DNA from: Acidimicrobiia bacterium
Lineage (GTDB): Bacteria; Actinomycetota; Acidimicrobiia; Acidimicrobiales; Poriferisodalaceae
NCBI GenBank assembly: GCA_022820505.1
Contig: JAJEFK010000012.1
Span: 1-64,000, forward strand
Length of the DNA stretch: 64,000 bases
Direction of reading: 5' to 3'
The notes below the pieces were generated by a model. That model did not search any database and was not told where the DNA came from. It saw only the letters and a program-made list of their open reading frames with translations. Below, in pieces: positions 1 through 43,836 of the stretch. Made by a program: the position numbers and the translations under genes. Numbering within the stretch: the stretch's first letter is position 1; each line of letters begins with the position of its first letter.

Positions 1-3000
1 CACAGCGCTGTCGCCCACCGTCGACGACGCCGAGCCGTCCTCCCAGCCGCCCGACGGCACAGCACCGTTGTGATCACCGGGCGCCGCCAGGCCGTTGTGC
101 ACCCGCGCCGACGTGCCCGAATTGCCCGACGCGCTGCGCGTGGACGCGAACGCCTTGAAGAACCCGACATAGGGCAGTACGTCGGCATGGCCGTTCGTGG
201 CCGCCGCCGTGCGCACGAACTCGTCATAGTCGCCGATGTCCGACGAGGTGGCATCACGCAGCGTCGAGGTGCGGAACAACAACCGGAACTCGTCGCCGTC
301 GCCCAAGCCGGCCGGCGCCAGCGGCCACGACGACGGCACCGTGACCTCGCCGGACTCATCGTCCACCAGCACCACCCCGAAAGGCCCGCCCACCGGATCG
401 GCGAGCGTCGAGTTCGACGCGCTCGGGGCGCGGGCGCCGGTGCCGTAGCCCACCACCGCATAAGGCTGCGAGCGCACGTCGTTGTCCACCGGGGTCAGCC
501 GCAGCGTGGCCGTCTGCGCGCCCGCCCCGAACTGCACCGCGGGGTTCTGGGCGCTGTGCAGGCCAGAGGTGAGCAGCGACACCCCGGCCTGGGAGGAGGG
601 GCTGAGCCCGAACGTGAAATCGTCGCCCACCGTCGCGCCGGCCACCGTCAGCGGCACCGTCACCGTCTCAGAGCCCGTCATCTCGCGGTCGAGCGTCAGG
701 GTGAACGTGCGGTAGCCCGTGGCATCGCTTTCGCCCTCCACCGCATTGCCGTTCGCGTCGCCGTCGGAGGCCGTCATCTCGACGCCCACGTCGTTGTCGG
801 TGATCGTGACCGTGGCGGTCGCCTGCGCGCCGAGGTTGTAGCCGTCGCCCTCGAGCAGCGTCAGGGTGATCGTCTCGCCGGGATCGATGATCTGGTCCTC
901 GATGACCGTGACCGTGATGACGGCCGTGCCCGACGGACCCACCACCACCGGGCCGGAGACCGCCTCATAGTCGTCGCCGCTGACGGCCGACCCGCCGACC
1001 GCGAACGCCACGCTGGTATCGGCTTTGGGCGCCGGCGACAGGCTCACCACCACGTTGAGCTGCTGGCCGCCTCTCGACGCCTCCGTCGCGGTGTAGGCGG
1101 CCGACGCGAACTCCGCCACCGGCGCCTCCACCGAGAACACCGGCGACAGGCCGAACAGCGGACGCTCGAGGTTCCGCAGGACAATATTGGCGTTGCCCGA
1201 GTCGAGCCCCGCATGATTCCCGGTCTGCACATGGCCACCGCTGCCCAGCACATAGGCCGCCCGCGGCGTGCCGTCGCTGCGGCTGCCGGTGAACACCTCC
1301 GCGGTGTCAGTGCGGTCCGCGCCGCTCTCGGTGCGGTCGGCGGTGCTGTCCCAGCTCCCGTCGTAGAAGTCGGCGTAGCTGTCGGCCGCCTTGACCCCGC
1401 CCAGCCAATACACCGGGATGCCCGCGCTGTCCTTGGTGGCCGCGGCCGAGCCGTCGGCGTAGCCGCCCGAACCCGAGTTCGCCGCCGGATCCCACATGGC
1501 GGTGTTCTCCCGCGCGTCGGCCGACGCAGTCGAGCCCACCACCCTCACCAGCCCCGCATAGGGCACGATCGCGGCATGGCCCCCATGGGCCGCCCGCTGC
1601 ACGAACGCGTCGTAGTCGCCGATGTCGGCCGACTGGGCCTTCCTCTTGCCGGACGTGATGAACATCAGCCGGAACTCGTCGCCTGTTTCGAGGCCGTCAG
1701 GGATCAGCTCCCAGCCGATCGGCACCACGACGTTGCCGGTGTCGTCGTCGACGATGAAGAACTCGACCGGCCCGCCCGACACCGCCGCGCCGCCTGTGGG
1801 GCTCTTCGACGGCGCCCGGTCGCCGGCGCCCACCGCGATCTGCACATACGGCGAGAAGCGCCTGTCGTTGTCGACCGGGACGAAACGCAGCGTGGCAGCC
1901 GTGGCGCCCGCCGCGAACCGCACCGCCGGGTTCTGCGCGCTGTGAGGGGCAGAGGTGACCAGCGTCACCCCGGCCTGCGCCGACGGCTCGAGCCCGAACG
2001 CGAAATCGTCGCCTGCCGTCGCGCCGGTCACCGTCAGCGGCACCGTCACCGTCTCCGCGCCGGTCAGCGCCCGGCCCAGCGTCAGCGTGACCGTGCGGTA
2101 GCCCGTCGAGTCGCCGGCGCCCTCCACCGCGTTGCCGGCGGCATCGCCGTCGGAGGCCGTCATCTCGACGCCCACGTGGTCGTCGGTGATCGTGACCGTG
2201 GCAGTCGCCTGCGCGCCGAGGTTGTAGCCGTCGCCCTCCAGCAGCGTGAAGGTGATCGTCTCGCCGGGATCGATGATCTGGTCCTCGATGACCGAGACCG
2301 TGATGACGGCCGTGCCCGACGTGCCCACCACCACCGGGCCGGAGACCGCCTCATAGTCGTCGCCGCTGGTGGCCGACCCGCCGACCGCGAACGCCACGCT
2401 GGTATCGGCTTGCGGCGGGGGCGACAGTCTCACCACCACATCGACGCTGCGACCCGCGCCCGACGCCTCCGTCGCGGTGTAGGCGGCCGACGCGAACTCC
2501 GCCGACGGCGCCTCCACCGAGAACACCGGCGACACCGCGAGCAGCGCCGAATCTCTCTGCGGCTTACGGCCGGTGTTGGTGGCGAGGCGTTCTGAGTTCC
2601 AGAGCGCCACGCTCGTGCTGCCTAGCTCATGGCCCGGCCGTTTGGCGCCTGTGTTCCAGCTGCCGGAGAAGAAAGCCCCGGAGTCGGTGCGGTCCGCGCC
2701 GCTCTCGGTGGTGTCGTCGGCGGCAGTGCTGTCCCAGGAACCGTCGTAGAAGTCGGCGTAGCTGTCGGCCGCCTTGACCCCGCCCAGCCAATACACCGGG
2801 ATGCCCGCGCTGTCCTTGTCGGCCGCGGTCGAGCCGTCGGCGTAGCCGCCCGAACCCGAGTTCGCAGCCGGATCCCACATGGCAGTGTTCACCCGGGCGT
2901 CCACCGACGCAGTCGAGCCCACCACCCTCACCAGCCCCGCATAGGGCACGATCGCGGCATGGCCCCTATGGGCTGCCCGCTGCACGAAAGCGTTGTACTC

Positions 3001-3480
3001 GTCGATATCGGTCGAATGGGCCTTCCTCTTGCCGGACGTGATGAACATCAGCCGGAACTCGCCGCCCGCGCCGATGCCCGACGGCTTCAACGCCCAGTCT
3101 TCAGGCACCACCACGGCGCCGGCTTCGTCGTCGTCGATGAAGAACCCCAACGGCACGCCCGACACCGCGCCCAGGCTCGCACCGCCGCCGGCCGACGGGG
3201 CCCGGCTGCCGGCGCCCTTGCTGATGGCGATCCAGGGCCGGGTGCGCTTGCCGTCGTCCACCGGGACGAAGCGCAGCGTGGCGGCGGCCGCGCCGGCCGT
3301 GAACTGCACCGCCGGGTTCTGGGGGCTGTGCGGGTCGGACGTGAGCAGCGCCACGCCGGACTGGGAGGAGGGGCTGAGCCCGAACGTGAAATCGTCGCCC
3401 ACCGTGGCTCCGGCCACCGTCAGCGGGATGGTGATCACTTCATTCCCCACGAGCGCGCGGCTCAGATTGAGGCTGAGGGC
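1..3480 (-). repeat. Long imperfect direct repeats, period about 1.38 kb, inside the giant gene
   Basis: Stretches of the giant gene recur almost unchanged at a spacing of about 1383-1386 bp (461-462 codons). 741-1035 matches 2127-2415 with only scattered differences, 1361-1500 matches 2744-2885, and 590-660 matches about 3360-3430 two periods away. Each unit encodes a Calx-beta segment plus one copy of the unnamed module. The nucleotide-level conservation implies recent duplication or ongoing gene conversion. Such repeats are also prone to mis-assembly. Confidence 0.85.
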
Positions 3481-6400
3481 TCGGTAGCCGGTGCTGTCGT
3501 CGGCGCCCTCCACCGCATTGCCGTCGCCGTCGCCGCCGGATGCGGACGCCGTCACGTCGATGATCGGCGATCGGCGCACCCGCACATCGACCGAGGGCGG
3601 GGACAGCCCTCCGACGGGGTAGGCGGCGGTGCCGGCGGTGATGGCGTGGGTGATGGCGGCGGCGCCCGGGGCCGCGCCGGTGACGGTGACCTTCTTGGGG
3701 GTGTGCCAGTCGTCGGAGTCGAACGACACCGACGACGACACGGTGGCCTTGCCGGTGTCGCTCGAGGCGGGCGTGACAGTGACCGTCCCGCCCGGGTCGC
3801 TGGCGAGTCGCACGTCGTATTCCACGGTGCTGCCCGAGATCAGCTCCAGCTCGTCGGGGGAGACCGCCACGGCATGCCCCGCGTCGGCCACGCTGAAATA
3901 GACGGTCTCGTCGGTGGTGTCGGTGTCGTAGCGGTAGGGACCCCCCGCCGAGCGCGTCTGGAACCTGATGAGGTACTGGCCGGGCATGGCGTCGGTGTCG
4001 GCGTCGTCGTCGAAGGGAACGCGCAGAGCCAGCGTGTGCGGGGTGTTCCAGTTGCCCGCCGCGCCCGGCGTGACATCGACCCTTGCCTCCACGAGCGTCG
4101 TGTCGGGGTCGTGGTCGATGACCACCTGGTTCCGGTCGGTTCGCGGCAGGTCGTACAACTCGGTGAACGTAGGGTCCGCTCCCGCGGGTCTCTCGAGCAC
4201 GGTGGCGATAAGCCGAGTCGGCACACCCGGGTCGACTTCCAGCTTCACCGTCAACGTGCCGCTGTCGCCCTCGGTCAGCGCGATGCTCGTCCCGTCGCCG
4301 CCCAGCCCCGACGCGTCGACCACCACCGATTGCGTGCCGTCGAAGACGACGACCTCGACTCGGCCGGCCGCTCCCACCGCAGCATCGAGCGGATCGGAGA
4401 GACGCACCTCGAAGGTCTCGGGAGGCTCGCGCACAGTGTCGGAGGCGATGTCCACGGTGACGGTCTTGGCGGTGTCGCCGGGGGCGAACACCAGATAGCC
4501 CGGATCAGCGGTGTAGTCGCCCGTCGGCGATGCCGGATAGACCCAAGCGTTGCGGAACAGAGCAGGGTCGACGATGGGGGTTCCGGTGGTCCAGTAGACC
4601 GATGCCGGCACGAGGGTGTCGCCCGTCTTGGTGACGGTGAGCGTCACAGAGCCCTCCGACTCATACCCGTGATACTCCGGGGAGCTGAACGCGAGGGTGG
4701 GGGCGTCGGCGTCGTCTTCGATGATGCCCAATGCGGTGCCGCCGAAGGGATGCACGCCGGGGGCGTTCGTGCCGCTGGGGGTGCCGAGCTTCACGGTGAA
4801 GTAATGGTCGCTCTCGTAGACGCCGTCGTCGGTGGTGGCGACAGCGAAGTCGGCCGAGGTGGCGCCCTCGGCAATGGTGACGCTGCCGGCGTCGCTGTCG
4901 TAGTCGGCGCCGGCGCCGCCCGACGCGCCGGTGGCTGTGATGTAGCCGGGGTCGGCTGCTCTCGCCCGCCCGTCGGCGAGGGTGTAGGGCACCGTGATGC
5001 CGCCTTGGGGCGCGGCGGCGGGAATGGTGACGGTGAAGGTGACGGCGCTGCCCTCCGCTGCGGCGGCGTCGGCGACGCGGGCGCCGGTGCTCCCCACCGA
5101 GAAGGCGTCCGACAGGGCGTACATGGGCCTCTGCTCGGCGGCGGGCTCGCCGTGGTCGCAGGTGTCGGTGGTGGGGCCCAGCGGAGTGAGCGCGCTGTTG
5201 CCGGAGTTGAGATAGCCCACATTCACACTGGGCTTGCCCGCGTTCAGATGGTCGCCGCCGCCGGGACAGTTGGCGCCGGTGCGCCGGTGCCCGTGCGACT
5301 TGGAGCCGGTCCAGTAGCCGCCGGCGGCGATGGCGGCCGCCGTGCCGTCGGCGTAGGCGGGATTGGCCTCGTCGTCCCAGCTGCCGTCGGTGAAGTCGGC
5401 CTTGTCGTCGGCCGCCTTGCTGCCGCCCACCCAGTAGATGGGGTCGTCAGGGTGGCTGCTGTCGTTCGGGTCGAACCTGGCGTTGATGTACGCCGCCCCT
5501 CCGCTGTCGATGGTGATGACCGGATGGAACCGCTTCGCATACGGCTTGAGGTCGGCCACGCCGCCCTGCTTGAGGCCGGCGCCGGTGATCTCGGCGCGCA
5601 CGAAATCGGTGTACGCCGTGCGCCCGCTCGACCCGCCGGTGCTCGCGGCGGTGGTGGCGTTGGTCACATACAGCAGCCGGAACCTGTCGCCGGGCTCCAG
5701 GCCAGAGGGCAGCAGCGGCCAGTCGGGGGGCACCTCGACGACGTCGGCCTGATCGGGCGACTCGTCGTCGGTGATGGCGAACCATGCCTGCGCGCCGGGG
5801 ACCCACGCCTCGATGCCGCCGTCGAGGTTGGTCACCGGCGGCAGCCAGCGGCCGGTGTACTCGGGGTGGTTCGGGTTGAGCGCCCGGAAGTCGCTGGGAA
5901 AGGCGATGCGGAACTCCTCGTGGTGGGCATCGCCGTCGTCGAAGCCGTCGGTGGCGTGCATCTCGATGACAGCGCTCTGCGCGCCGGCGCCGCGGAACTC
6001 CAGATAGCGGTAGCCGACATGGCTGGGGGTCAGCCGGTCGACGGCCTCCACCGACACGCCGACGCCTGCGGCGGTCATCTGGAAGTCGTTGAGGCGCGGC
6101 GGCCACGCCACGTTGGCCGAGACCCGCGGGCCGCGGGCGCTCTGGACCACGTCGCAGGAAGTGCCGTCCGATGCTTCGACCGTGTTGCCGTTGCCGTCGT
6201 CGTCGAGAACGCACTCCTGCGCGGCGCCGGGCTTGGTGTGGCCCTTGGCCTCGAGGTACAGCGGCACCCGCACGAACTCGCCGTCGACGAGGGGGCGGCT
6301 CAGGCTCACGGTGAGCGAGTTGTCCACCAGCCCCGGTTCGCCCTCCACCATGACCCGCGAGATGTAGTCGGCATCGCCGACGGTGCGCACGCCGTTGCCC

Positions 6401-8352
6401 GCCATGGTGACGGTGGTGGCGTCGTCGTCGACCAAGGTCAAGGTGTGAGTCACGGGCGCCACGCCGGCATATGCGCCAGGGCCGCTGAGGGTGTGGGTGA
6501 TGCCCACCTGCGCATCAGCGGCGTCGTCGGCATTCTGCACGCCGCTGACGATGACGGTCTGTTCGTTGTTCCATCTGGGGTAGAACTGCGGGCCGAAGGT
6601 CAACGACGCGCCCGCGGTGACGATCGCCTTGCTCGGGTCGGCGCTGGCGACAGTCACCGTGACATCGCCGGTGGGCTGGGTGGTCAGCCGCACCGGATAG
6701 GCGTACAGTCCGCCCTCGAGGAGGCGTCCGTCGCCGACGTCCAGCACCGCCAGGCCTGCGGCAGCGGTCTGGTCGATGAGCGTCATCCGGTACGAGCGCT
6801 GCTCGCCCTCGGCGCTGTCGTAGCCGACGCTGCTGTGGCCGGCGCAGCCCGACCCCGCGCACAGGCCGCCCGCCAAGCTCGACGTGAAGTACGGGGCCGG
6901 GCCGGTGTCGGAGCGCCGCGGGATGCTCGCCTCGAGCGTCTCGCTCACCGTGTCGGAGTCGGTCAGCGCCGTCACCGCCAGCGTGGCCCGCTGCGCTCCC
7001 GCCCCCGAGAGGGTCAGCCGTCCCTGCGTGCCGTCGTCGGAGTCTGCGTAGGCGGCGCCGGCGGGCGAGCCGTCGAGGGCGACGCTGAAGTGCGTGCCCA
7101 GCGCCGCCCCGGAGAACGCCAGCGGCACCGTGACCGACTCGCCGGCCGTGAGGGCCCGGTCGATGACCACCCGGAACTTCGCGGTGTCGGTCGCGCTGCC
7201 TTCGGCGGCTGTGGAGTCTTCGCCGTCCGCGGGCAGCAGGCGTATCCGGGTCGGCTCGTCGTCGTCTGTCACGGTGAGCGCCACGTCGGGCAGCGTGATG
7301 CCCGAGTACACCGTGGGGGCGGTGGCGGTGTCGGGTCCTTTCACGGTGCGCTGCCGTCCGCCGACGGTGACGGTGCGGTCGGCCTCGTCGAAGTACTTGC
7401 TGTCGTAGTCGTACACCGTGAGCTCCAGCGTTCCCGACAGGACGCCGCCGGGGGTGTCGACGGCGTTGTCGAACGCCAGCAGGCGCACCTCGAAGCTGTG
7501 CGGATCGGGACGCCAGGCGCCCTCGGCGGCGTCCCACTCGGCTTGGGACACGCCGGGGGTGCCGTCGGTGTCGAGCAGGTCGAGCCATTGCTGGGTGATC
7601 GTGAGGACCTCTCGGGCAGCGGTGGGCGACGGGAGCTCGTGCTTCGCGAAGCTGCCGGTGGCGCTGGCGATCGAGGTGGGCGTGCCGCCGGCGCTGGGCA
7701 CGGTGTCGGCCACCCGCGCCACGATCACGATCGGCCCCGTGGGCGGGCTGTCGAGGCTCACGGTGATCGTGCCTCGGTGGTCGCGGGGGTCGCTGTTGGC
7801 GGTGCGCTCCATCATCGAGGCGCCGCCGCCGCTGACGGTGACGCCGCCGCCGCCGGTGCCGGTCAGCGTGGCGTCGGACGCGTCGGCGATGGCGATGTCC
7901 CACTCAGCGAGCAGCCCGGTGCCGGTGCATGCTGCGCTGGAGCAGAGCTGCAGCCCGAACGTCTCGTCGTCGGTGTCGTTGTCGGCCCGGGCCTCCAGCT
8001 CGAAGCGGATGCGCTGGGAGGCGGGCCTGATCCGGGTCTGGGCGCCGTTGCCGCCCGGCGTGATGGACCGCTGTTCGGTGGTGGCCGACAGGTCGCCCGA
8101 CTCAGCGGTGTAGGGCGCGCTCAGCGGCTTGATGCGCAGGTAGTGCGCCGAGGCATCGGGCACGTTGGAGATCTCGAAGAATCGCTGCTGGCCCTCGACG
8201 ATGGAGGTGCGGTGCAGGTACGGGGTGCCCGTGGAGGCTGTCTGCGCGGCTGCCTCGGGCGGCACCACCGCCAGCGGCACCACCGCCAGCAGCGACCCCG
8301 CCAACGCCACCGCCAGACCAGCTGCTGCCCCGCGTGCCAGCGGGCGTCTCAC
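1..8352 (-). CDS. Giant secreted Calx-beta repeat protein (3' end outside window)
   Basis: Open on the minus strand from a GTG at 8352 to the window edge (2784 codons, no stop). An in-frame TAG lies directly before the GTG, and a GAGGTGG ribosome site lies 7 nt upstream, so the start is firm. The first ~36 residues form a signal peptide (RR, then an Ala/Leu/Val-rich core ending PPEAAAQ). The rest is beta-rich extracellular sequence: Calx-beta-like units (for example EDQIIDPGETITFTL, and repeated DNDVGVEMTASDGDA...GNAVEG segments) alternate with an unnamed ~200-residue module. That module opens with W-x-L-x-P-x-G-L...G-D-E-F-R-L-x-F and contains PIYW-L/V-GG-x-K-A-A-D and D-F-Y-D-G-S-W-D; copies lie near 5105-5750, 2515-3120, 1130-1745 and 1-350. 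Calx-beta repeats are typical of calcium-binding surface adhesins. An adhesin or surface role is inference; no cell-wall anchor is visible because the C-terminus is missing. Confidence 0.88.
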   Translation of the reverse strand, partial: MRRPLARGAAAGLAVALAGSLLAVVPLAVVPPEAAAQTASTGTPYLHRTSIVEGQQRFFEISNVPDASAHYLRIKPLSAPYTAESGDLSATTEQRSITPGGNGAQTRIRPASQRIRFELEARADNDTDDETFGLQLCSSAACTGTGLLAEWDIAIADASDATLTGTGGGGVTVSGGGASMMERTANSDPRDHRGTITVSLDSPPTGPIVIVARVADTVPSAGGTPTSIASATGSFAKHELPSPTAAREVLTITQQWLDLLDTDGTPGVSQAEWDAAEGAWRPDPHSFEVRLLAFDNAVDTPGGVLSGTLELTVYDYDSKYFDEADRTVTVGGRQRTVKGPDTATAPTVYSGITLPDVALTVTDDDEPTRIRLLPADGEDSTAAEGSATDTAKFRVVIDRALTAGESVTVPLAFSGAALGTHFSVALDGSPAGAAYADSDDGTQGRLTLSGAGAQRATLAVTALTDSDTVSETLEASIPRRSDTGPAPYFTSSLAGGLCAGSGCAGHSSVGYDSAEGEQRSYRMTLIDQTAAAGLAVLDVGDGRLLEGGLYAYPVRLTTQPTGDVTVTVASADPSKAIVTAGASLTFGPQFYPRWNNEQTVIVSGVQNADDAADAQVGITHTLSGPGAYAGVAPVTHTLTLVDDDATTVTMAGNGVRTVGDADYISRVMVEGEPGLVDNSLTVSLSRPLVDGEFVRVPLYLEAKGHTKPGAAQECVLDDDGNGNTVEASDGTSCDVVQSARGPRVSANVAWPPRLNDFQMTAAGVGVSVEAVDRLTPSHVGYRYLEFRGAGAQSAVIEMHATDGFDDGDAHHEEFRIAFPSDFRALNPNHPEYTGRWLPPVTNLDGGIEAWVPGAQAWFAITDDESPDQADVVEVPPDWPLLPSGLEPGDRFRLLYVTNATTAASTGGSSGRTAYTDFVRAEITGAGLKQGGVADLKPYAKRFHPVITIDSGGAAYINARFDPNDSSHPDDPIYWVGGSKAADDKADFTDGSWDDEANPAYADGTAAAIAAGGYWTGSKSHGHRRTGANCPGGGDHLNAGKPSVNVGYLNSGNSALTPLGPTTDTCDHGEPAAEQRPMYALSDAFSVGSTGARVADAAAAEGSAVTFTVTIPAAAPQGGITVPYTLADGRARAADPGYITATGASGGAGADYDSDAGSVTIAEGATSADFAVATTDDGVYESDHYFTVKLGTPSGTNAPGVHPFGGTALGIIEDDADAPTLAFSSPEYHGYESEGSVTLTVTKTGDTLVPASVYWTTGTPIVDPALFRNAWVYPASPTGDYTADPGYLVFAPGDTAKTVTVDIASDTVREPPETFEVRLSDPLDAAVGAAGRVEVVVFDGTQSVVVDASGLGGDGTSIALTEGDSGTLTVKLEVDPGVPTRLIATVLERPAGADPTFTELYDLPRTDRNQVVIDHDPDTTLVEARVDVTPGAAGNWNTPHTLALRVPFDDDADTDAMPGQYLIRFQTRSAGGPYRYDTDTTDETVYFSVADAGHAVAVSPDELELISGSTVEYDVRLASDPGGTVTVTPASSDTGKATVSSSVSFDSDDWHTPKKVTVTGAAPGAAAITHAITAGTAAYPVGGLSPPSVDVRVRRSPIIDVTASASGGDGDGNAVEGADDSTGYRALSLNLSRALVGNEVITIPLTVAGATVGDDFTFGLSPSSQSGVALLTSDPHSPQNPAVQFTAGAAAATLRFVPVDDGKRTRPWIAISKGAGSRAPSAGGGASLGAVSGVPLGFFIDDDEAGAVVVPEDWALKPSGIGAGGEFRLMFITSGKRKAHSTDIDEYNAFVQRAAHRGHAAIVPYAGLVRVVGSTASVDARVNTAMWDPAANSGSGGYADGSTAADKDSAGIPVYWLGGVKAADSYADFYDGSWDSTAADDTTESGADRTDSGAFFSGSWNTGAKRPGHELGSTSVALWNSERLATNTGRKPQRDSALLAVSPVFSVEAPSAEFASAAYTATEASGAGRSVDVVVRLSPPPQADTSVAFAVGGSATSGDDYEAVSGPVVVGTSGTAVITVSVIEDQIIDPGETITFTLLEGDGYNLGAQATATVTITDDHVGVEMTASDGDAAGNAVEGAGDSTGYRTVTLTLGRALTGAETVTVPLTVTGATAGDDFAFGLEPSAQAGVTLVTSAPHSAQNPAVRFAAGATAATLRFVPVDNDRRFSPYVQIAVGAGDRAPSKSPTGGAAVSGGPVEFFIVDDDTGNVVVPIGWELIPDGLETGDEFRLMFITSGKRKAQSADIGDYDAFVQRAAHGGHAAIVPYAGLVRVVGSTASADARENTAMWDPAANSGSGGYADGSAAATKDSAGIPVYWLGGVKAADSYADFYDGSWDSTADRTESGADRTDTAEVFTGSRSDGTPRAAYVLGSGGHVQTGNHAGLDSGNANIVLRNLERPLFGLSPVFSVEAPVAEFASAAYTATEASRGGQQLNVVVSLSPAPKADTSVAFAVGGSAVSGDDYEAVSGPVVVGPSGTAVITVTVIEDQIIDPGETITLTLLEGDGYNLGAQATATVTITDNDVGVEMTASDGDANGNAVEGESDATGYRTFTLTLDREMTGSETVTVPLTVAGATVGDDFTFGLSPSSQAGVSLLTSGLHSAQNPAVQFGAGAQTATLRLTPVDNDVRSQPYAVVGYGTGARAPSASNSTLADPVGGPFGVVLVDDESGEVTVPSSWPLAPAGLGDGDEFRLLFRTSTLRDATSSDIGDYDEFVRTAAATNGHADVLPYVGFFKAFASTRSASGNSGTSARVHNGLAAPGDHNGAVPSGGWEDGSASSTVGDSAV

Positions 8353-30193: not shown

Positions 30194-33100
30194 CTACCGG
30201 TCGCTGCGGTACAGGTAGCGGATGTCCCAGTAGCCGTACAGCGTGGGCGTGGTGTTGCCGAACACGTTGCGCACGGCGCCCAGTCGTTCGCCGAGCGTCG
30301 TGTAGATCAACGGCACGTTCGCTGCGGCGATGGCCTGCGCCTCGCGATAGAGCCCGACTCGCTTGTCGCGGTCGAGTACCTGGCTGGCCTCGATATAGAG
30401 CCGGTCTATCTCGGCTTCCCAGTCGGTCGCGGGTTCGTCTTGGAACGGATGCCACAGGTGCAACGACTGGGAGCTGTGCCACAAGCCGATGCCGCTATAG
30501 GGATCGGGGCCCCCGGTGAAGCCGATGACCATGGCTTCCCAGTCGTAGGTGGTGGTGAGCTGCGACACCAGGTCTCTGAATTCGATTGCCTCGTAGGTCA
30601 CGTCGAGCCCCACTTCGGCCATCCCGTTTCGGATGATCTCCGTGGCTGCCTGGCGCACGGCGTTGCCCGTGTTGGTCACCAGTGTGAACGAGATCGGATT
30701 GCCCACGTCGTCCTCGCGGATGCCGTCGCCGTCGGTGTCGATCCACCCCAAGTCGTCCAGGAGATCGTTCGCCCTGTCGATGTCGTACGGGTAGCGACGC
30801 ACATCGGGGTTGTGGAAATCGCCGGCGGCCGGGCTCACTGACGACCACTGCTCGTAGCCCAGCCCGTGCTGGATGCCGTCGATCATGGCCGCCTTGTCGA
30901 GCGTGTGGGCCACCGCCTGACGGAAGTTGACGTTGCTGAACCAGTGCAGCTTGATCGGGTCGACGAAGGGCTCGCCTGCGTCGTTCGAGCCCGGATTCTG
31001 GTTGAAGGTCAGGAATGTGGTGCCGAAACCGGGACCTCGGCGGTGCAGGGCGAAGTTCTCCTCTTCCTGCAGCGGTTCCAGCAGCGCATATTCCTCGCCC
31101 AGCACGCCGTGGAAGTCCGCGGTGCCGTCACGGAAGAGCGCCAGTTCGGACTCCAGGTCCGGCACCACGATGTGCACCACCTGGTCCAAGTACGGGAGCT
31201 GTTGGCCGTCGGCGTCGGTCTTCCAGTAGTGCGGGTTGCGCTTGAAGACGACGCGCTCGTCGGGCGTGTATTCGCCGATGGTGAACGGGCCCGTGCCGAT
31301 GATCTCGGACGGGTCGGTGTCGATGGTCCAGAACTCGGCGAACGTGCCTGCCTCGATGGGTGCTTCAAAGATGTGCTTGGGGTAGATGGACGTGCCCATC
31401 GAACGCAGGAACGGTGCGAACGGCTGCGGCAGCACGAACTCGACCGTGTGGTCGTCGAGCGCCGCCACCGTCATCTTCGAGGTTTCCCACTCTCCGTCAT
31501 CGTTGAGATAGCGGAATTCGAAGGTGCCACGGCTCGACGCGTTGAAGTCGTCGTTGTAGATGACCTGGTTGAAGGTGAAATCCACGTCGTGTGCTGTGAA
31601 GGGCGTGCCGTCGTTCCACCGCACATCGTCACGCAGGTGGAACACCCAGCGCAGCCCGTCATCAGAGCTCTCCCACGACTTGGCAAGCTCCGGTTCGATC
31701 GCGTCGTCCAGCCACGATGTCTCGGTGAGGCCCTCGAACAGGTAGCCCAAGACATTCGACGAGCCGGCGTCGTTGGACAGCGCCAAGTTGAATGTGAGCG
31801 GCTCTGAGATCGTCGCCAGCGTGAGCGCGCCGCCGTGGGTGCCGATCTCGTAGGAGAAGTCGGCGGCATTGCGGCGCAGCTCGTCCACGATCCCCTGGGT
31901 CGCCAGGTCTTGCTCGGATGGGCAGAAGGACAGCCCGAGGCTGTCGAGATCGTCGGCCAAGAACTCGGCGTAGCGCCAGTCGGCGGGAATGCAGCCGCTG
32001 AGCGTGTTGGTGCCGCCGAGCATGATCTGTTCGAGATCGGCGAGCGCCGCGAGACCTGCCGGGATGGGGCCGCTGAGCTGGTTGCCCTGGAGCCACAGTC
32101 GCCTGAGGCTGCTGAGATTGCCGAACTCGTCGGGGATGGCCCCGGTGAGCTGGTTGCCGTCGAGGTAGAGCCGTCGCAGCTTGGCGAGGTTGCCGAGTTC
32201 GGCCGGAATCTCGCCGGTCAGCTCGTTGCCGCGCAGCCACACCTCGGTCAGCTCCACGAGATTTCCGAGCCCGGCAGGCAGCTCACCGCTGAGCTGGTTG
32301 TCGTCGAGGTCGAGCCGGGCGAGGTTCACCAGGTTGCCGAGCTCGGCGGGGATCGGTCCGGTGAGCTCGTTGTGCCACAGGTTGAGCCGCGTCAGCGAGC
32401 TGAGGTTGCCGAGTTCGGGCGGGATGTCACCGCTCAGCTCGTTGTACCGGAGGAAGAGGATCCGCAGGTTCGCCAGGTCGCCGAGCTCGGCGGGAATGGG
32501 GCCGTCGAGCTCGTTGAAGCTGAGCGAGATGCGCTCGAGGCTGGCCAGGCCGCCGAGTTCGGGCGGGATGTGGCCGGTCAGGGCATTCCGGCTCAGGTCG
32601 AGGTTGACCAGCCGGTCCAAGTCTGCGAGCTCGGCGGGGATCTTCCCGGACAGCTGGTTGTCGTGCACGACGAGTTGCTCGAGCCTCGCCAGCCGGGCCA
32701 TGCCCGCAGGCAGCTTGCCGGTGAGCGAATTCCGGCTGAGATCGAGGCTTCTGAGCTGGCCCAGCTTGCCGATACTGCTGGGGATCGACCCGCTCAGCAG
32801 GTTGTTAGCCATGCGCAGGTCGCGCAGCTTGGCGAGGCGTGTGATGGTGACGGGGATGTCGCCGGACAGGCGGTTGTTGCTCAGGTCGATTTCGGTGAGC
32901 TGGGTGAGGTTGGCGACCGCTGTCTTCAGCGGGCCGGACAGCTCGTTGTCATTCAGCCGGAGTTCGCGAAGCTCGGTCAGGTCCCACAACGCATAGGGGA
33001 TCTGCCCGTAGAGGACGTTGTCGCTGAGGTCGAGTTGCTTCAGCTTCGTGAGCGCGCCCACCGCACTCGGGATCCGGCCGGTCAGCAGGTTGCGGTTGAG

Positions 33101-34366
33101 ACGCAGTTCGGCCAGGCGTGTTGCGTCCGCGAGCGCAGCGGGAATGGTGCCCGAGAGCTGGTTGTCGCCCAAGTTCAGAACCTGGAGCTGAACGAGCTCG
33201 CCGATCCGACTCGGAATATCGCCGGTGAGCCGGTTGCGCTCCAGCCGGAGCTCCTTGAGCCTGGTGAGCTTGCCCACTTCGGCGGGAAGCTCGCCAGTCA
33301 GCTGGTTGGCTTCCAGCCGCAGGTAGCGCAGTTCGTCCAGGTTGCCCAACTCGGGCGGCAGCGCTCCGCTGAGGCCGTTTTGACCGAGACGCAGATGCCT
33401 GAGTTCGGCGAGCTGTCCGATCTCGGCAGGAATCTCCCCGGACAGCCGGTTCTCGCTGACGACCAGATACTCGAGTTCGCCGAGGTCGCCCATCTCGGCG
33501 GGGATCGACCCGGTGAGCTGGTTGGCACGCAGGTCGAGCGTGACGAGCCGCGACAGAGTGCCCATCTCGGCGGGCAGCTCGCCGGCCAGCGAATTGTCGC
33601 TGGCGTCGAGCCAGGTCAAGCTGGCGAGGTCGCCTATCTCGGCGGGGATCTCACCCGAGAAGCTGTTGCGGCTGACATCGAGCCACTCCAAGTTGCCGAG
33701 CTGGCCGATTTCGGCGGGGATCTCGCCCCAGAACAAGTTGTCGCTGATCACCAGGTGCGAGAGTTGGGACATCTCCCCGAGTTCGGACGGCAGCGGGCCC
33801 GACATGCGGTTGCCTCGCATGTCGAGGACGCGCAGGTTGTCGAGCTCCCACAGCTCGGCGGGATTCCTGCCCCACAGGGCGTTGTGCTTGACGTCGAGCA
33901 GCGTCAGGTTGGTGAGTTCGCCGATCTCGGCAGGGATCTGGCGGTAGAGCCGGTTGTTCTGCAGGTCGAGCTCCCGGAGGCTGGTGAGCTTGCCGATGGC
34001 CCGGGGAATCTCGCCATGGATGCCGTTGTCTCCCAAGTCGAGGCGTTGCAGGTGCGTGAGCTGGCCGATCGCCTCGGGAAGCTCCCCTGACAGCCCGTTG
34101 GACGGCAGTTCGAGCCGCACCACCCGCCCGTCGCTGTCGGTGGTGACGCCGTGCCACCGGCTGAGCGGCGCCCCGGAGCCCCAAAGGTCGTTGCGGCTCC
34201 AACTGTCCCCTCCGGTCGCAGCGAACAGCTCCTCAAGTGCTGCACGGTCCGACCGCGCGTCGTTGTGCTCGCTAGCGGCAGCTGGGACCGCCAGCTGCAG
34301 CGCCAGCACAGCGACCAGCGAGATGGCGGCGGCCTTGGCTGACGTGGCGCGACGGGCTCGGGTCAT
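30194..34366 (-). CDS. Secreted fusion of plant-type leucine-rich repeats and family 5 (peptide) ABC substrate-binding protein
   Basis: 1390 residues in one uninterrupted frame; ATG 34366 has GAGGA 8 nt upstream. Residues 1-31 are a signal peptide (RRATSAK, hydrophobic core, AAAS) with no lipobox Cys. An N-terminal LRR cap (DRAALEELFAATGGDSWSRND) precedes 29 exact 24-residue repeats (80-775) of the plant-specific type, L-x-x-L-x-L-x-x-N-x-L-[ST]-G-x-[IL]-P-x-x-[LI]-G-x-L, then a Cys-containing cap (776-815). From about 845 to the end is a complete SBP_bac_5 domain (EPELAKSWESSDDGLRWVFHLRDDVRWNDGTPFTAHDVDFTFNQVI; GTGPFTIGEYTPDERVVFKRNPHYW). No permease or ATPase genes adjoin. It could be an exported sensor or scavenger that binds protein via the LRRs and peptide via the SBP (inference). 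Confidence 0.9.
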   Translation of the reverse strand: MTRARRATSAKAAAISLVAVLALQLAVPAAASEHNDARSDRAALEELFAATGGDSWSRNDLWGSGAPLSRWHGVTTDSDGRVVRLELPSNGLSGELPEAIGQLTHLQRLDLGDNGIHGEIPRAIGKLTSLRELDLQNNRLYRQIPAEIGELTNLTLLDVKHNALWGRNPAELWELDNLRVLDMRGNRMSGPLPSELGEMSQLSHLVISDNLFWGEIPAEIGQLGNLEWLDVSRNSFSGEIPAEIGDLASLTWLDASDNSLAGELPAEMGTLSRLVTLDLRANQLTGSIPAEMGDLGELEYLVVSENRLSGEIPAEIGQLAELRHLRLGQNGLSGALPPELGNLDELRYLRLEANQLTGELPAEVGKLTRLKELRLERNRLTGDIPSRIGELVQLQVLNLGDNQLSGTIPAALADATRLAELRLNRNLLTGRIPSAVGALTKLKQLDLSDNVLYGQIPYALWDLTELRELRLNDNELSGPLKTAVANLTQLTEIDLSNNRLSGDIPVTITRLAKLRDLRMANNLLSGSIPSSIGKLGQLRSLDLSRNSLTGKLPAGMARLARLEQLVVHDNQLSGKIPAELADLDRLVNLDLSRNALTGHIPPELGGLASLERISLSFNELDGPIPAELGDLANLRILFLRYNELSGDIPPELGNLSSLTRLNLWHNELTGPIPAELGNLVNLARLDLDDNQLSGELPAGLGNLVELTEVWLRGNELTGEIPAELGNLAKLRRLYLDGNQLTGAIPDEFGNLSSLRRLWLQGNQLSGPIPAGLAALADLEQIMLGGTNTLSGCIPADWRYAEFLADDLDSLGLSFCPSEQDLATQGIVDELRRNAADFSYEIGTHGGALTLATISEPLTFNLALSNDAGSSNVLGYLFEGLTETSWLDDAIEPELAKSWESSDDGLRWVFHLRDDVRWNDGTPFTAHDVDFTFNQVIYNDDFNASSRGTFEFRYLNDDGEWETSKMTVAALDDHTVEFVLPQPFAPFLRSMGTSIYPKHIFEAPIEAGTFAEFWTIDTDPSEIIGTGPFTIGEYTPDERVVFKRNPHYWKTDADGQQLPYLDQVVHIVVPDLESELALFRDGTADFHGVLGEEYALLEPLQEEENFALHRRGPGFGTTFLTFNQNPGSNDAGEPFVDPIKLHWFSNVNFRQAVAHTLDKAAMIDGIQHGLGYEQWSSVSPAAGDFHNPDVRRYPYDIDRANDLLDDLGWIDTDGDGIREDDVGNPISFTLVTNTGNAVRQAATEIIRNGMAEVGLDVTYEAIEFRDLVSQLTTTYDWEAMVIGFTGGPDPYSGIGLWHSSQSLHLWHPFQDEPATDWEAEIDRLYIEASQVLDRDKRVGLYREAQAIAAANVPLIYTTLGERLGAVRNVFGNTTPTLYGYWDIRYLYRSDR
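32042..34129 (-). repeat. 29 tandem 72-bp units encoding leucine-rich repeats
   Basis: Each unit is exactly 24 codons with no length variation. Units are diverged at the nucleotide level but keep the L, N and IP positions. A 30th, longer unit forms the C-terminal cap. Confidence 0.9.
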
Positions 34367-34485
34367 GGGTGTGTCCTCGCGTCAGGAAAATGTGGGCGGG
34401 TCGACAGTCGGGCAGAGTACAACTCGGCCTCACCGACCCTGCGGAGCCTCCCTGCTGCGGGGTTCAACCTCCTAGGGTCTCGGCG
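34367..34485. other. Divergent promoter region
   Basis: 119 bp between the LRR-binding-protein gene (minus) and an acyl-CoA dehydrogenase gene (plus). TAGGGT at 34473-34478 serves the plus-strand gene. I see no convincing -10 box for the minus-strand gene beyond its GAGGA ribosome site. Confidence 0.4.
34473..34478 (+). promoter_or_regulatory. Leaderless -10 box TAGGGT
   Basis: TAGGGT ends 7 nt before ATG 34486. Confidence 0.5.
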
Positions 34486-40703: not shown

Positions 40704-41882
40704 ATGAGCGCGAATGCAGCAACGCTGGGACTCGCCGAGGTGCCCATCGTCGAGTACGGCGATGTCGAAGACGACATGGTCGCCTACCGGGCAGCCGGCA
40801 CCGAGCGGGCGATGCAGCTCGCCAACCGTGGACCGATCCGCTTCACCGACAGCGGCGATCTGCATCCCGAGATCGCCGAGGCCTACTCGCGCTGCGGTTT
40901 CTACGTCTTCACGGGCGTGCTCGGCCCTGACGAGCTGGCCGACATCGAGGCTGACGTCATCGATCTGCTCGACCGCTGCCCCACCGGCCCCGACTCCGAC
41001 ATCGACCGGCATGGCCGCCCGGCGCTCGATGCCGGCCGCACGGGCAAGGCCATCTCGTTCGTTCGCCCGCTGTCGGATCCCTATGGCGGCACCGATGTCG
41101 CCCACGGGCGCCATCCGTTCAAGATGTTCGAGCCCGCAGCCCCCGACGGCGCGCCGGAATGGGTGGCACAGGTCATCAGCGGTTCGCTGCAGTACTCCGA
41201 CGCTTGCCTGCGGGTGTATGCGCACCCCGGCCTGCTGGGCGTCGCGCAAGCGCTCAATGGCCCCGATTTCACTCCATTCAACGAGGTGGTGTGGATCAAG
41301 CACCCAGGGCTCGGCGGCTCGGTGGCGTGGCACCAGGACGGCTGGACGCACTGGGACCATCCTGAGCTCGACGAGGGCACGCACGGTTTCAACTTCATGG
41401 CCCAGCTCTACGGCTGCGACGCCACCAACGGCCTGTGGGTGGTTCCCGGCTCGCACCGCATGGGCAAGGTGGACATCAAGGCGATGTGCCAGGAGGCGGG
41501 CTCAGACCGGCTGCCCGATGCGGTGCCGCTCATCTGCGAACCCGGCGATGTCGCGATCACCAGCCGCCAGGCCATCCATGGCTCGTTCGCGAACACATCC
41601 GAGCGTCCGCGGGTCACGATCAACTTCGGCTTCCACCGGCGTCGCTCGGTGCTGGGCGTGCGCAGCGGCGGCGTCCACAACCCGATCTCGCTGTACGACG
41701 AGGCCTACATCGCCGAGCGCTCCCGGGTGATCGGCTGGGCGATCGATGCCCGCGGCAAGCGCTTCGGTGACGAGACGCCGTTCGTGTACCAGCCCAACGT
41801 GGGCCGCGAGCACGAGTTCGTCTGGGACGACGACGCTCGCGAGGCCATCAAGGACTACAACCTCAAAGACCTCGGCATCTAG
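40704..41882 (+). CDS. Phytanoyl-CoA dioxygenase (PhyH)-family protein
   Basis: 392 residues from ATG 40704 with GGGGG upstream. It is a double-stranded beta-helix Fe(II)/2-oxoglutarate dioxygenase: the HxD ligands are in VAWHQDGWTHW (about 214) and the distal His in SRQAIHGSFANTS (about 292), followed by an Arg (ERPRVTINFGFHRR) for 2-oxoglutarate. The family hydroxylates lipids or small metabolites. The substrate is unknown. The stop codon overlaps that of the convergent ABC ATPase gene within CTAG (41879-41882). Confidence 0.88.
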   Translation: MSANAATLGLAEVPIVEYGDVEDDMVAYRAAGTERAMQLANRGPIRFTDSGDLHPEIAEAYSRCGFYVFTGVLGPDELADIEADVIDLLDRCPTGPDSDIDRHGRPALDAGRTGKAISFVRPLSDPYGGTDVAHGRHPFKMFEPAAPDGAPEWVAQVISGSLQYSDACLRVYAHPGLLGVAQALNGPDFTPFNEVVWIKHPGLGGSVAWHQDGWTHWDHPELDEGTHGFNFMAQLYGCDATNGLWVVPGSHRMGKVDIKAMCQEAGSDRLPDAVPLICEPGDVAITSRQAIHGSFANTSERPRVTINFGFHRRRSVLGVRSGGVHNPISLYDEAYIAERSRVIGWAIDARGKRFGDETPFVYQPNVGREHEFVWDDDAREAIKDYNLKDLGI

Positions 41883-42925
41883 GTCTCGAGAGCGAGCACG
41901 GCGCTTGGGCCGATGCGCAGCTCCACGCTGGCCCCCACTGCGGGGCCGTGGGGCGTGATGGCGTTGAGAGTGGTGGCGACCCCGCCGATGTCTGCTTCCA
42001 GCCGCAGCTCGTAACGGTCGCCGCGGAAGCGACGCCGGGCCACTGTGGCCGACAGCTGCGCCGTCACAGCGTCTGCGACGTCCGCGCTGGCGCCGTCGTC
42101 AACCACTACCTCGATGCGGTCGGCCCGCAGCACGAAGCTGTCCGAGCGACCGGCTGCTTGAGCCAGCTCCGGCGGCACTTCGGAGTCGAACACGTTCGTG
42201 TGACCCAGGAATCGGGCCACCTGGGCGGTTCGAGGATCGGTCCACACCTCCTCGGGTGTGCCGATCCGCAATATGCGGCCCGACGCCATCACCGCGATCC
42301 GGTCGGCCAGGGCAAAGGCCTCGTGATGGTCGTGGGTGACGTGCACGGCGGTGACGCCGACCTGGTCGAGCACGGGCCGCAGCTCGTCGATAAGACGTTC
42401 TCGCAACAACCGGTCGAGCGAGCCGAACGGCTCGTCGAGCAGCAGCACTCTGGGTTCGGGCGCAAGTGCCCGTGCCAGCGATACTCGCTGCGCCTCGCCA
42501 CCCGACAGCGTGGCCACGTCGCGGCCCTCGAAGCCCGCCAGGCCCACCAGCGCGAGTACTTCAGCCACTCGCCGGCGCCGTTCCGCAAAGGGCACCCTGG
42601 CCATGCGCAGCCCGAACGCCACGTTGCCCTCGACGTCGAAGTGCGGGAACAGCACCTCGTCCTGGAACATCAGGCCGATGCCGCGCTGGTCGGGGCGCTG
42701 ACCGGTCAGGTCCGTGCCGTCGAGCTCGATCCGGCCGGCGTCCAGCGGCTGCAGCCCCGAGGCGGCCCGCAGCAGCGTGGTCTTGCCGCAGCCCGACGGC
42801 CCCAAAAGCACCACCATCTCGCCGTCGCCGACGGCGAGGTCCACTCCATCCAGCGCCCTCGTGCTGTCGAAGTGAACGTGGGCACCCGTGATCCGCAGCG
42901 TGCCACCGCCTCGCCCATCTGCCAT
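41879..42925 (-). CDS. ABC transporter ATP-binding protein (importer type), orphan
   Basis: 348 residues. Walker A GPSGCGKTT (about 41), Q-loop MFQDEVLFPHFDV, signature LSGGEAQRVSLARALA (about 138), Walker B VLLLDEPFGSLD and H-loop HVTHDHHEA. A C-terminal ~110-residue TOBE-like region follows, as in iron(III), thiamine and polyamine-type importer ATPases. No permease or binding protein gene is adjacent, so the transported compound is unknown. A TAGCGT box lies 7 nt before ATG 42925. Confidence 0.88.
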   Translation of the reverse strand: MADGRGGGTLRITGAHVHFDSTRALDGVDLAVGDGEMVVLLGPSGCGKTTLLRAASGLQPLDAGRIELDGTDLTGQRPDQRGIGLMFQDEVLFPHFDVEGNVAFGLRMARVPFAERRRRVAEVLALVGLAGFEGRDVATLSGGEAQRVSLARALAPEPRVLLLDEPFGSLDRLLRERLIDELRPVLDQVGVTAVHVTHDHHEAFALADRIAVMASGRILRIGTPEEVWTDPRTAQVARFLGHTNVFDSEVPPELAQAAGRSDSFVLRADRIEVVVDDGASADVADAVTAQLSATVARRRFRGDRYELRLEADIGGVATTLNAITPHGPAVGASVELRIGPSAVLALET

Positions 42926-42932
42926 GTGCACG

Positions 42933-42938
42933 ACGCTA
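42933..42938 (-). promoter_or_regulatory. Leaderless -10 box TAGCGT (minus strand)
   Basis: TAGCGT ends 7 nt before the ABC ATPase ATG at 42925. Confidence 0.5.
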
Positions 42939-43009
42939 CGCACTCCCCGACGCCTGCCTAGACAGGTTTCTTGACGCAAACTGATGATTCGCGAAGGGAA
43001 GGTCTGGAA

Positions 43010-43774
43010 GTGACGGAGAGGTTGAGCGGACGGACGGCGTTGGTGACGGGGGCGAGCCGGGGCATCGGCGAGCACTGCGCCCGGGCCTTGGCCCGGGACG
43101 GTGCGCGGGTGGCACTGGCGGCAAGGACCACCGACGATCTGGACCGGATCGCGGCCGAGCTGCCGCACGACCCGGTGGTGATCCAAAGCGATCTTGCCGC
43201 AGCCGGCGCTGGTGCCGATCTGGCTGCCGCCGCTGTTGACACACTCGGCGGGGTCGACATCCTGGTGAACAACGCAGGACGGGGCGAGCTTCGCGAACCC
43301 GGCGGCGACCAGGCAGTGCTGCAGCTCAACTACCTGGCGCCGCTGGAGACCACCCGGGCGCTGGCGCGCCAGATGGGCGAGCGAGGTCACGGCTCGGTGA
43401 TCCACATGTCCTCGATTGCCGGCTCGGTCGGCGTGAGCGAGCTGCCCACCTACGGGGCCACTAAGGCTGCGCTGGATTCGCTCACCCGTTCGCAGGCAGC
43501 CACCTACGGCCGGTTCGGCATCCGGGTGAACGCCGTGGCCCCCGGCCTGATCATCACCGAGATGTGGGCAGCCGGCCGCGAGATCCCCGGTCTCGCCGAC
43601 GGTCTCGAGCGCCACATCGCTCTGGGCCGCTGGGGCGTGCCCGAGGAGATCGCCGACGTGGTCGCCTTCCTCGCCGGCGACGAAGCCCGCTACGTCACCG
43701 GCCAGACCATCACCGTCGACGGCGGCTACCAAGGCGTCACCGCCTGGGCCAACTACCCCGCCCCCAGCTCGTAG
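43010..43774 (+). CDS. Short-chain dehydrogenase/reductase
   Basis: 254 residues from GTG 43010, behind GAAGGGAAGG; the TTG at 42971 gives a poorer start. Classical SDR motifs: TGASRGIG (about 14), NNAG (about 88), and Ser-Tyr-Lys of the active site (MSSIAGS ... YGATK, about 139-160), followed by VAPGLIITEM and a C-terminal VTGQTITVDGGY. NAD(P)-dependent oxidation or reduction of an alcohol/ketone. The substrate is unknown. Confidence 0.88.
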   Translation: MTERLSGRTALVTGASRGIGEHCARALARDGARVALAARTTDDLDRIAAELPHDPVVIQSDLAAAGAGADLAAAAVDTLGGVDILVNNAGRGELREPGGDQAVLQLNYLAPLETTRALARQMGERGHGSVIHMSSIAGSVGVSELPTYGATKAALDSLTRSQAATYGRFGIRVNAVAPGLIITEMWAAGREIPGLADGLERHIALGRWGVPEEIADVVAFLAGDEARYVTGQTITVDGGYQGVTAWANYPAPSS

Positions 43775-43836
43775 CAATCAGCACCAGAATCTGCTGCGAG
43801 TCTGTGCGGCAGCTTCAGGGAAGCACTCGAGAAGCC

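Follow-up and report, generated by a model that had tools for sequence, protein, structure and literature searches.

A stretch of genomic DNA from an Acidimicrobiia bacterium (the window: 64,000 nucleotides, positions 1 to 64,000 of contig JAJEFK010000012.1) contains a gene in which an array of plant-type leucine-rich repeats (LRRs) is joined in frame to a solute-binding protein (SBP) domain of the SBP_bac_5 (SBP_5) family (Table 1). The join is genuine and conserved within the genus. By its SBP half, the protein falls into an orphan clade of SBP_5 proteins, 60-88% identical, that spans Acidimicrobiia, Chloroflexota and Dadabacteria.

Domain architecture of the LRR-SBP protein

In Pfam searches, the 1390-residue frame matches LRR_1 with an E-value of 5e-95, which rules out a chance repeat array as the source of the LRRs, and SBP_bac_5 at residues 890-1299 with an E-value of 1e-78; the match of the SBP half to this family (PF00496) scores 265 bits against a curated cut-off of 32.4. 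A motif scan located 29 LRRs that start at residues 82-754, with all spacings equal to 24, and the 24-residue repeat, the LxGxIP motif and the solenoid fold match together place the array in the plant-specific (PS) class. The initial annotation, which had proposed a secreted in-frame fusion of 29 plant-type repeats of 24 residues to SBP_bac_5, is thus borne out by the Pfam matches, the motif scan and the orthologues. It was also correct in reporting no lipobox: the signal region is free of cysteine, so that the protein lacks the lipobox cysteine by which SBP lipoproteins of Gram-positive bacteria are recognized and which is present in the sister family and in the one species of the genus with split genes (G005, see below). 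A listing of SBP_5 frames from 60 genomes of this phylum contains no other frame longer than 1000 amino acids.

Table 1. Features of the LRR-SBP gene (positions in the window; residues of the encoded protein)
Feature	Position	Strand	Basis or remark
Ribosome-binding site GAGGA	34374..34378	-	7 nt before ATG; sequence
LRR-SBP fusion gene, 1390 aa + stop	30194..34366	-	open frame, ATG start
Sec-type signal peptide, residues 1-31 (about)	34274..34366	-	judged by eye from sequence
LRR N-cap (DRAALEELFAATGGDSWSRNDLW...WHGVTTDSDGRV), residues 32-81	34124..34273	-	other LRR proteins have similar N-caps
29 plant-type 24-residue LRRs, residues 82-777	32036..34123	-	Pfam, motif scan, fold match
Repeats 22-29, inner face nearly invariant, with aromatics, residues 586-777	32036..32611	-	conservation
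LRR C-cap, last residue Cys815, residues 778-815	31922..32035	-	alignment; similar caps elsewhere
Variable linker, ~10 aa, residues 816-825	31892..31921	-	18-100% identity between species
Complete cluster-C solute-binding domain, residues 826-1390	30197..31891	-	Pfam, AF2 model, fold match
Pfam SBP_bac_5 match	30470..31699	-	profile search

The closest fold matches of the LRR half are plant peptide receptors, in particular ERL1 (Z 34) and RGFR1 (Z 33). With the plant-specific class ectodomains (ERL1, RGFR1, MIK2, FLS2, BRI1) it has in common the 24-residue LxxLxLxxNxLxGxIP repeats and the solenoid; unlike these, it is bacterial and secreted and is fused to a solute-binding domain, the transmembrane helix and the kinase domain of the plant LRR receptor kinases being absent from the 1390-residue chain. 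The inner face of the solenoid is more conserved than the rest of the surface in 25 of the 29 repeats (Wilcoxon p 1e-4), most strongly in repeats 22-29 with their aromatic positions F/Y24, W/H25, W27, Y28 and W29. The same pattern holds in the split species, which suggests that the LRR half has a putative binding face of its own, independent of the fusion. In two further secreted LRR proteins from this genus (L023:1081-2889 and L029:422-2569), an FN3-like stretch stands in front of the same type of N-cap and C-cap.

For the SBP half, an AlphaFold2 (AF2) prediction on residues 560-1390 yielded a good LRR model and a poor SBP model owing to a shallow alignment; a second prediction, for the SBP alone with a deeper alignment, gave a good model (pLDDT 92.9, pTM 0.90) with the complete two-lobe cluster-C fold. 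Its best structural match is AppA of Bacillus subtilis with a bound nonapeptide (Z 38.2, 2.1 A over 495 residues, 27% identity), followed by NikZ and DppA. The claim that SBP5 domains bind peptides fits the AppA match but is too narrow: among the ligands of close structural matches there are also nickel chelates, melibiose, pectin, chitin oligosaccharides and sialic acid and, since sugar- and sialate-binding members score highly as well, the ligand class is not narrowed to peptides. The protein shares the two-lobe fold with AppA and the other Opp/Dpp cluster-C binding proteins and differs from them in that it is not a lipoprotein, has no permease or ATPase gene in its locus, carries 784 residues of LRRs and caps in front of the SBP domain and contains many clade-specific invariant residues, including a W/H-rich stretch (W471 H472 H478 W480 ... 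W491 in the domain numbering).

Conservation and history of the fusion

The fusion is present, with an identical number of repeats, in eight species of the genus, namely, the source and seven others, whose full-length or near full-length orthologues are 77-98% identical to the protein described here; the G007 copy is interrupted by a contig end, and in G008 no more than the C-terminal part is present, at the edge of a contig. Across all nine species compared, there are 29 repeats and not a single indel in the LRRs. The junction falls within a variable linker of about ten residues that separates two complete domains. An artefact at the junction had been a concern of the initial annotation; apart from the oddity of the architecture and the two genes of G005, nothing favors an assembly chimera of two genes, and this possibility, to which we assign a negligible probability, is refuted in practice by the identical junction in the seven other species, whose independent assemblies have contig names in MEGAHIT and SPAdes style.

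The other prospect that would have undermined the fusion, namely, that the two halves are separate genes in all relatives, did not materialize: one species is split and eight are fused. In the split species, G005, an LRR gene on the plus strand and a separate SBP gene on the minus strand are convergent and lie between the same flanking genes as the fusion. The SBP gene has its own ribosome-binding site and encodes a lipoprotein with the lipobox LILSAC. At the flanking genes, no species diverges more than G005 (dS of 0.54-0.69 from every other species), and an SBP tree built from DNA with lipoprotein relatives as the root places it outside the fusions with weak support (82/71), although the protein tree disagrees, with G010 outermost (95/65). 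The presence of separate genes for an LRR protein and a lipoprotein SBP in the most divergent species indicates that the LRR protein probably replaced the lipid anchor of the SBP upon fusion. We infer that the change was from split to fused, and the likeliest history would be that the two genes were neighbors, that the SBP gene was inverted and that it was then joined in frame to the LRR gene, losing the lipid anchor.

An orphan clade with exchangeable N-terminal modules

The initial annotation had pointed out that no permease or ATPase gene is adjacent to the fusion; this holds, and the feature is conserved. No BPD_transp_1 permease is encoded on the contig of the window, and the nearest ABC ATPase (41879-43777), 7.5 kb from the LRR-SBP gene, is of a generic type. 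The flanking genes encode an alcohol dehydrogenase, a tyrosine phosphatase, an acyl-CoA dehydrogenase, a metallo-beta-lactamase fold protein and a fumarase. The cognate permease and ATPase genes expected in the locus of an Opp/Dpp importer are thus missing, and a search for a hidden Opp/Dpp operon close by found none on this contig, at the G005 locus or at the clade loci. Elsewhere in the genome, there are three Opp/Dpp loci with permeases, and the other SBP_5 genes mostly are located beside permeases. At the far end of the window (1-8310, minus strand), a frame of at least 2769 amino acids with at least four Calx-beta stretches runs to the contig start and encodes a giant surface-type protein.

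Relatives from the clade were detected in 16 of 395 sampled genomes of the class (the source genome counted) and in 30 of the 400 genomes sampled around a Chloroflexota genome (G063). None of the 32 clade loci, inspected up to about 9 kb on each side, contains a DppB/DppC homologue; the same test found one within 1.5 kb in 34 of 36 ordinary SBP_5 loci. The lack of transporter genes and of a lipobox, although real, is therefore not special to the LRR fusion and reflects an orphan clade with swappable N-termini. The modules that precede the clade SBP are a lipobox with a linker, a LysM-like domain, the LRRs (the version found in the source genus), an FN3-like domain, a type-I periplasmic binding protein (PBP) domain (Peripla_BP_6), a 'CEFVLGF' domain and a CARDB/DUF11-like domain. 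Several of these assignments come from scores below the Pfam cut-offs: 18.8 bits against 20.9 for LysM, 23.9 bits against 30 for the FN3-like PF16656, and only weak DUF7507/DUF11 similarity for the 'CARDB-like' module; the Pfam search gave no match for the 'CEFVLGF' domain. The LysM-like versions form one clade and so do the CARDB/DUF11-like versions, each with 100/100 support. These proteins belong to a wider, seemingly undescribed family of transporter-less binding proteins with interchangeable front ends.

Several individual members deserve mention. In a single family of the class (L081:1024-3198, L082, L083, L086), the clade SBP follows the LysM-like domain, and there is no lipobox. In Chloroflexota (L047:7665-9707, L088-L095, L113), the SBP follows a secreted domain of ~90 amino acids (CEFVLGFATLK...GGLMVWRKADNWT.F.DG.RTWI.GP.GLQSR), the one that is without a Pfam match. 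An 1110-residue frame of an Actinomycetes metagenome-assembled genome (MAG) (L050:6375-9707) combines a type-I Peripla_BP_6 (ANF-receptor) domain with the clade SBP_5 and thus has two ligand-binding domains in one chain. In the Dadabacteria copy, the SBP domain is interrupted by an in-frame stop (L049:8328-8330), which could reflect a pseudogene, a sequencing error or recoding. The SBPs of the Actinomycetes MAG (L050:8004-9704, COS1) and of a Chloroflexi MAG (L052:8001-9701, COS3) are mutual nearest relatives (99/96), a pairing suggestive of transfer across phyla within a single habitat.

SBP genes without transporter neighbors have a parallel in marine Synechococcus, where urtA genes stand alone (PMC8786288). 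Those are single orphan genes, in contrast to the case described here, which involves a whole clade, three phyla and swapped N-terminal modules. The combination of LRRs with SBP_bac_5, which the initial annotation had believed to be undescribed, indeed yielded no description in the literature searched, which included few subscription journals, and the same is true of LRRs with any solute-binding protein and of such a combination in sponge symbionts.

Possible functions

A lipid anchor and LysM, a peptidoglycan-binding domain, are attachment devices. Chiefly because both occupy the same N-terminal position in the clade, we interpret the LRR as a tethering or targeting part. The reading that we tentatively prefer is that the protein is a secreted orphan SBP retained at the surface, with the lipid anchor replaced by an LRR arm. 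Under this scheme, the clade SBP would be attached to the cell by whichever N-terminal module is present, be it a lipid anchor, LysM, LRR or another, and in the source genus the LRR protein, once the product of a neighboring gene, would have taken the place of the lipid anchor. The conserved inner face of the LRRs would dock on a ligand in the cell wall, in the matrix or of the host and hold the SBP there. The SBP would close over a small ligand, most likely, judging from fold similarity only, an oligopeptide or a peptide-like compound, that would be passed to an Opp/Dpp-type permease encoded elsewhere in the genome; alternatively, the SBP could be a capture or sensing protein. The three Opp/Dpp permease loci of this genome make acceptance of the ligand in trans possible. 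Against this reading, permeases are absent from all orphan clade loci, so the clade may perform no transport at all, and on an arm of 29 repeats the SBP may have poor access to a permease in the membrane; the weak support for G005 as the basal species weighs on the same side.

For the clade as a whole, it is conceivable, if on the unlikely side, that these SBP_5 proteins are dedicated non-transport receptors of the surface or matrix, shared across the phyla of one habitat, with interchangeable modules (lipid, LysM, LRR, FN3-like, type-I PBP) setting the place of display; the LRR version would then be a two-site receptor that binds a macromolecule by the LRRs and a small ligand by the SBP. The role put forward in the initial annotation, a receptor or scavenger that would capture a protein or surface and present peptides, is hypothetical.

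A host-directed receptor or adhesin, in which binding of the LRRs to a host protein or to a matrix surface would be combined with capture or neutralization of host peptides by the SBP and no transport would be involved, appears fairly unlikely to us. The absence of a permease near any clade member is compatible with such a role, and so is the likeness of the LRRs to plant peptide receptors, although the plant-like sequence mirrors the LRR subclass and not the ligand. Eukaryotic-like repeats including LRRs are enriched in sponge-associated MAGs, but they are low or absent in sponge Actinobacteriota (PMC8163846). The LRR-SBP protein resembles the LRR proteins of sponge symbionts in that study in its plant-type repeats and may also resemble them in coming from sponge MAGs; it differs from them in being the sole LRR_8 protein found in its genome and in carrying a solute-binding domain. 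The relatives come from MAG sets with names pointing to sponges, and these names suggest a habitat in marine sponges for the genus (compare the sponge species of PMC8163846).

Still less probable, in our estimate, is a sensory role in which the closed SBP, or the LRR-SBP complex, touches a membrane receptor instead of a transporter. The orphan status throughout the clade, the fusion of an ANF-receptor/Peripla_BP_6 domain to the same clade SBP in one relative and the PDB title of the cluster-C, pectin-binding SPH1118, which calls it chemotaxis-dependent, all fit such a role; against it, a scan of adjacent genes in the window turned up no receptor, kinase or chemotaxis gene.

Finally, a neutral or near-neutral fusion, with each half working as it did when separate, strikes us as improbable. 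The location of the junction in a short variable linker between complete domains, and the fact that G005 does without the fusion, are what one would expect under this explanation. On the other side, the fusion was retained in eight species over substantial divergence with the 29 repeats ungapped, dN/dS is well below 1 for both halves (0.26-0.43 for the LRRs; 0.10-0.20, that is, strong purifying selection, for the SBP), and the fused form, having no lipid anchor, must be attached differently from the G005 protein.

The LRR-SBP protein shows, in a clean and testable form, a binding protein of the importer type that has been set free from a transporter and combined with a recognition domain of eukaryote-like character, and the swapped N-termini of the clade amount to a natural experiment on the needs of orphan solute-binding proteins. 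If the LRRs target host material, the protein would be a nutrient- or signal-capture device of an uncultured, probably animal-associated lineage.
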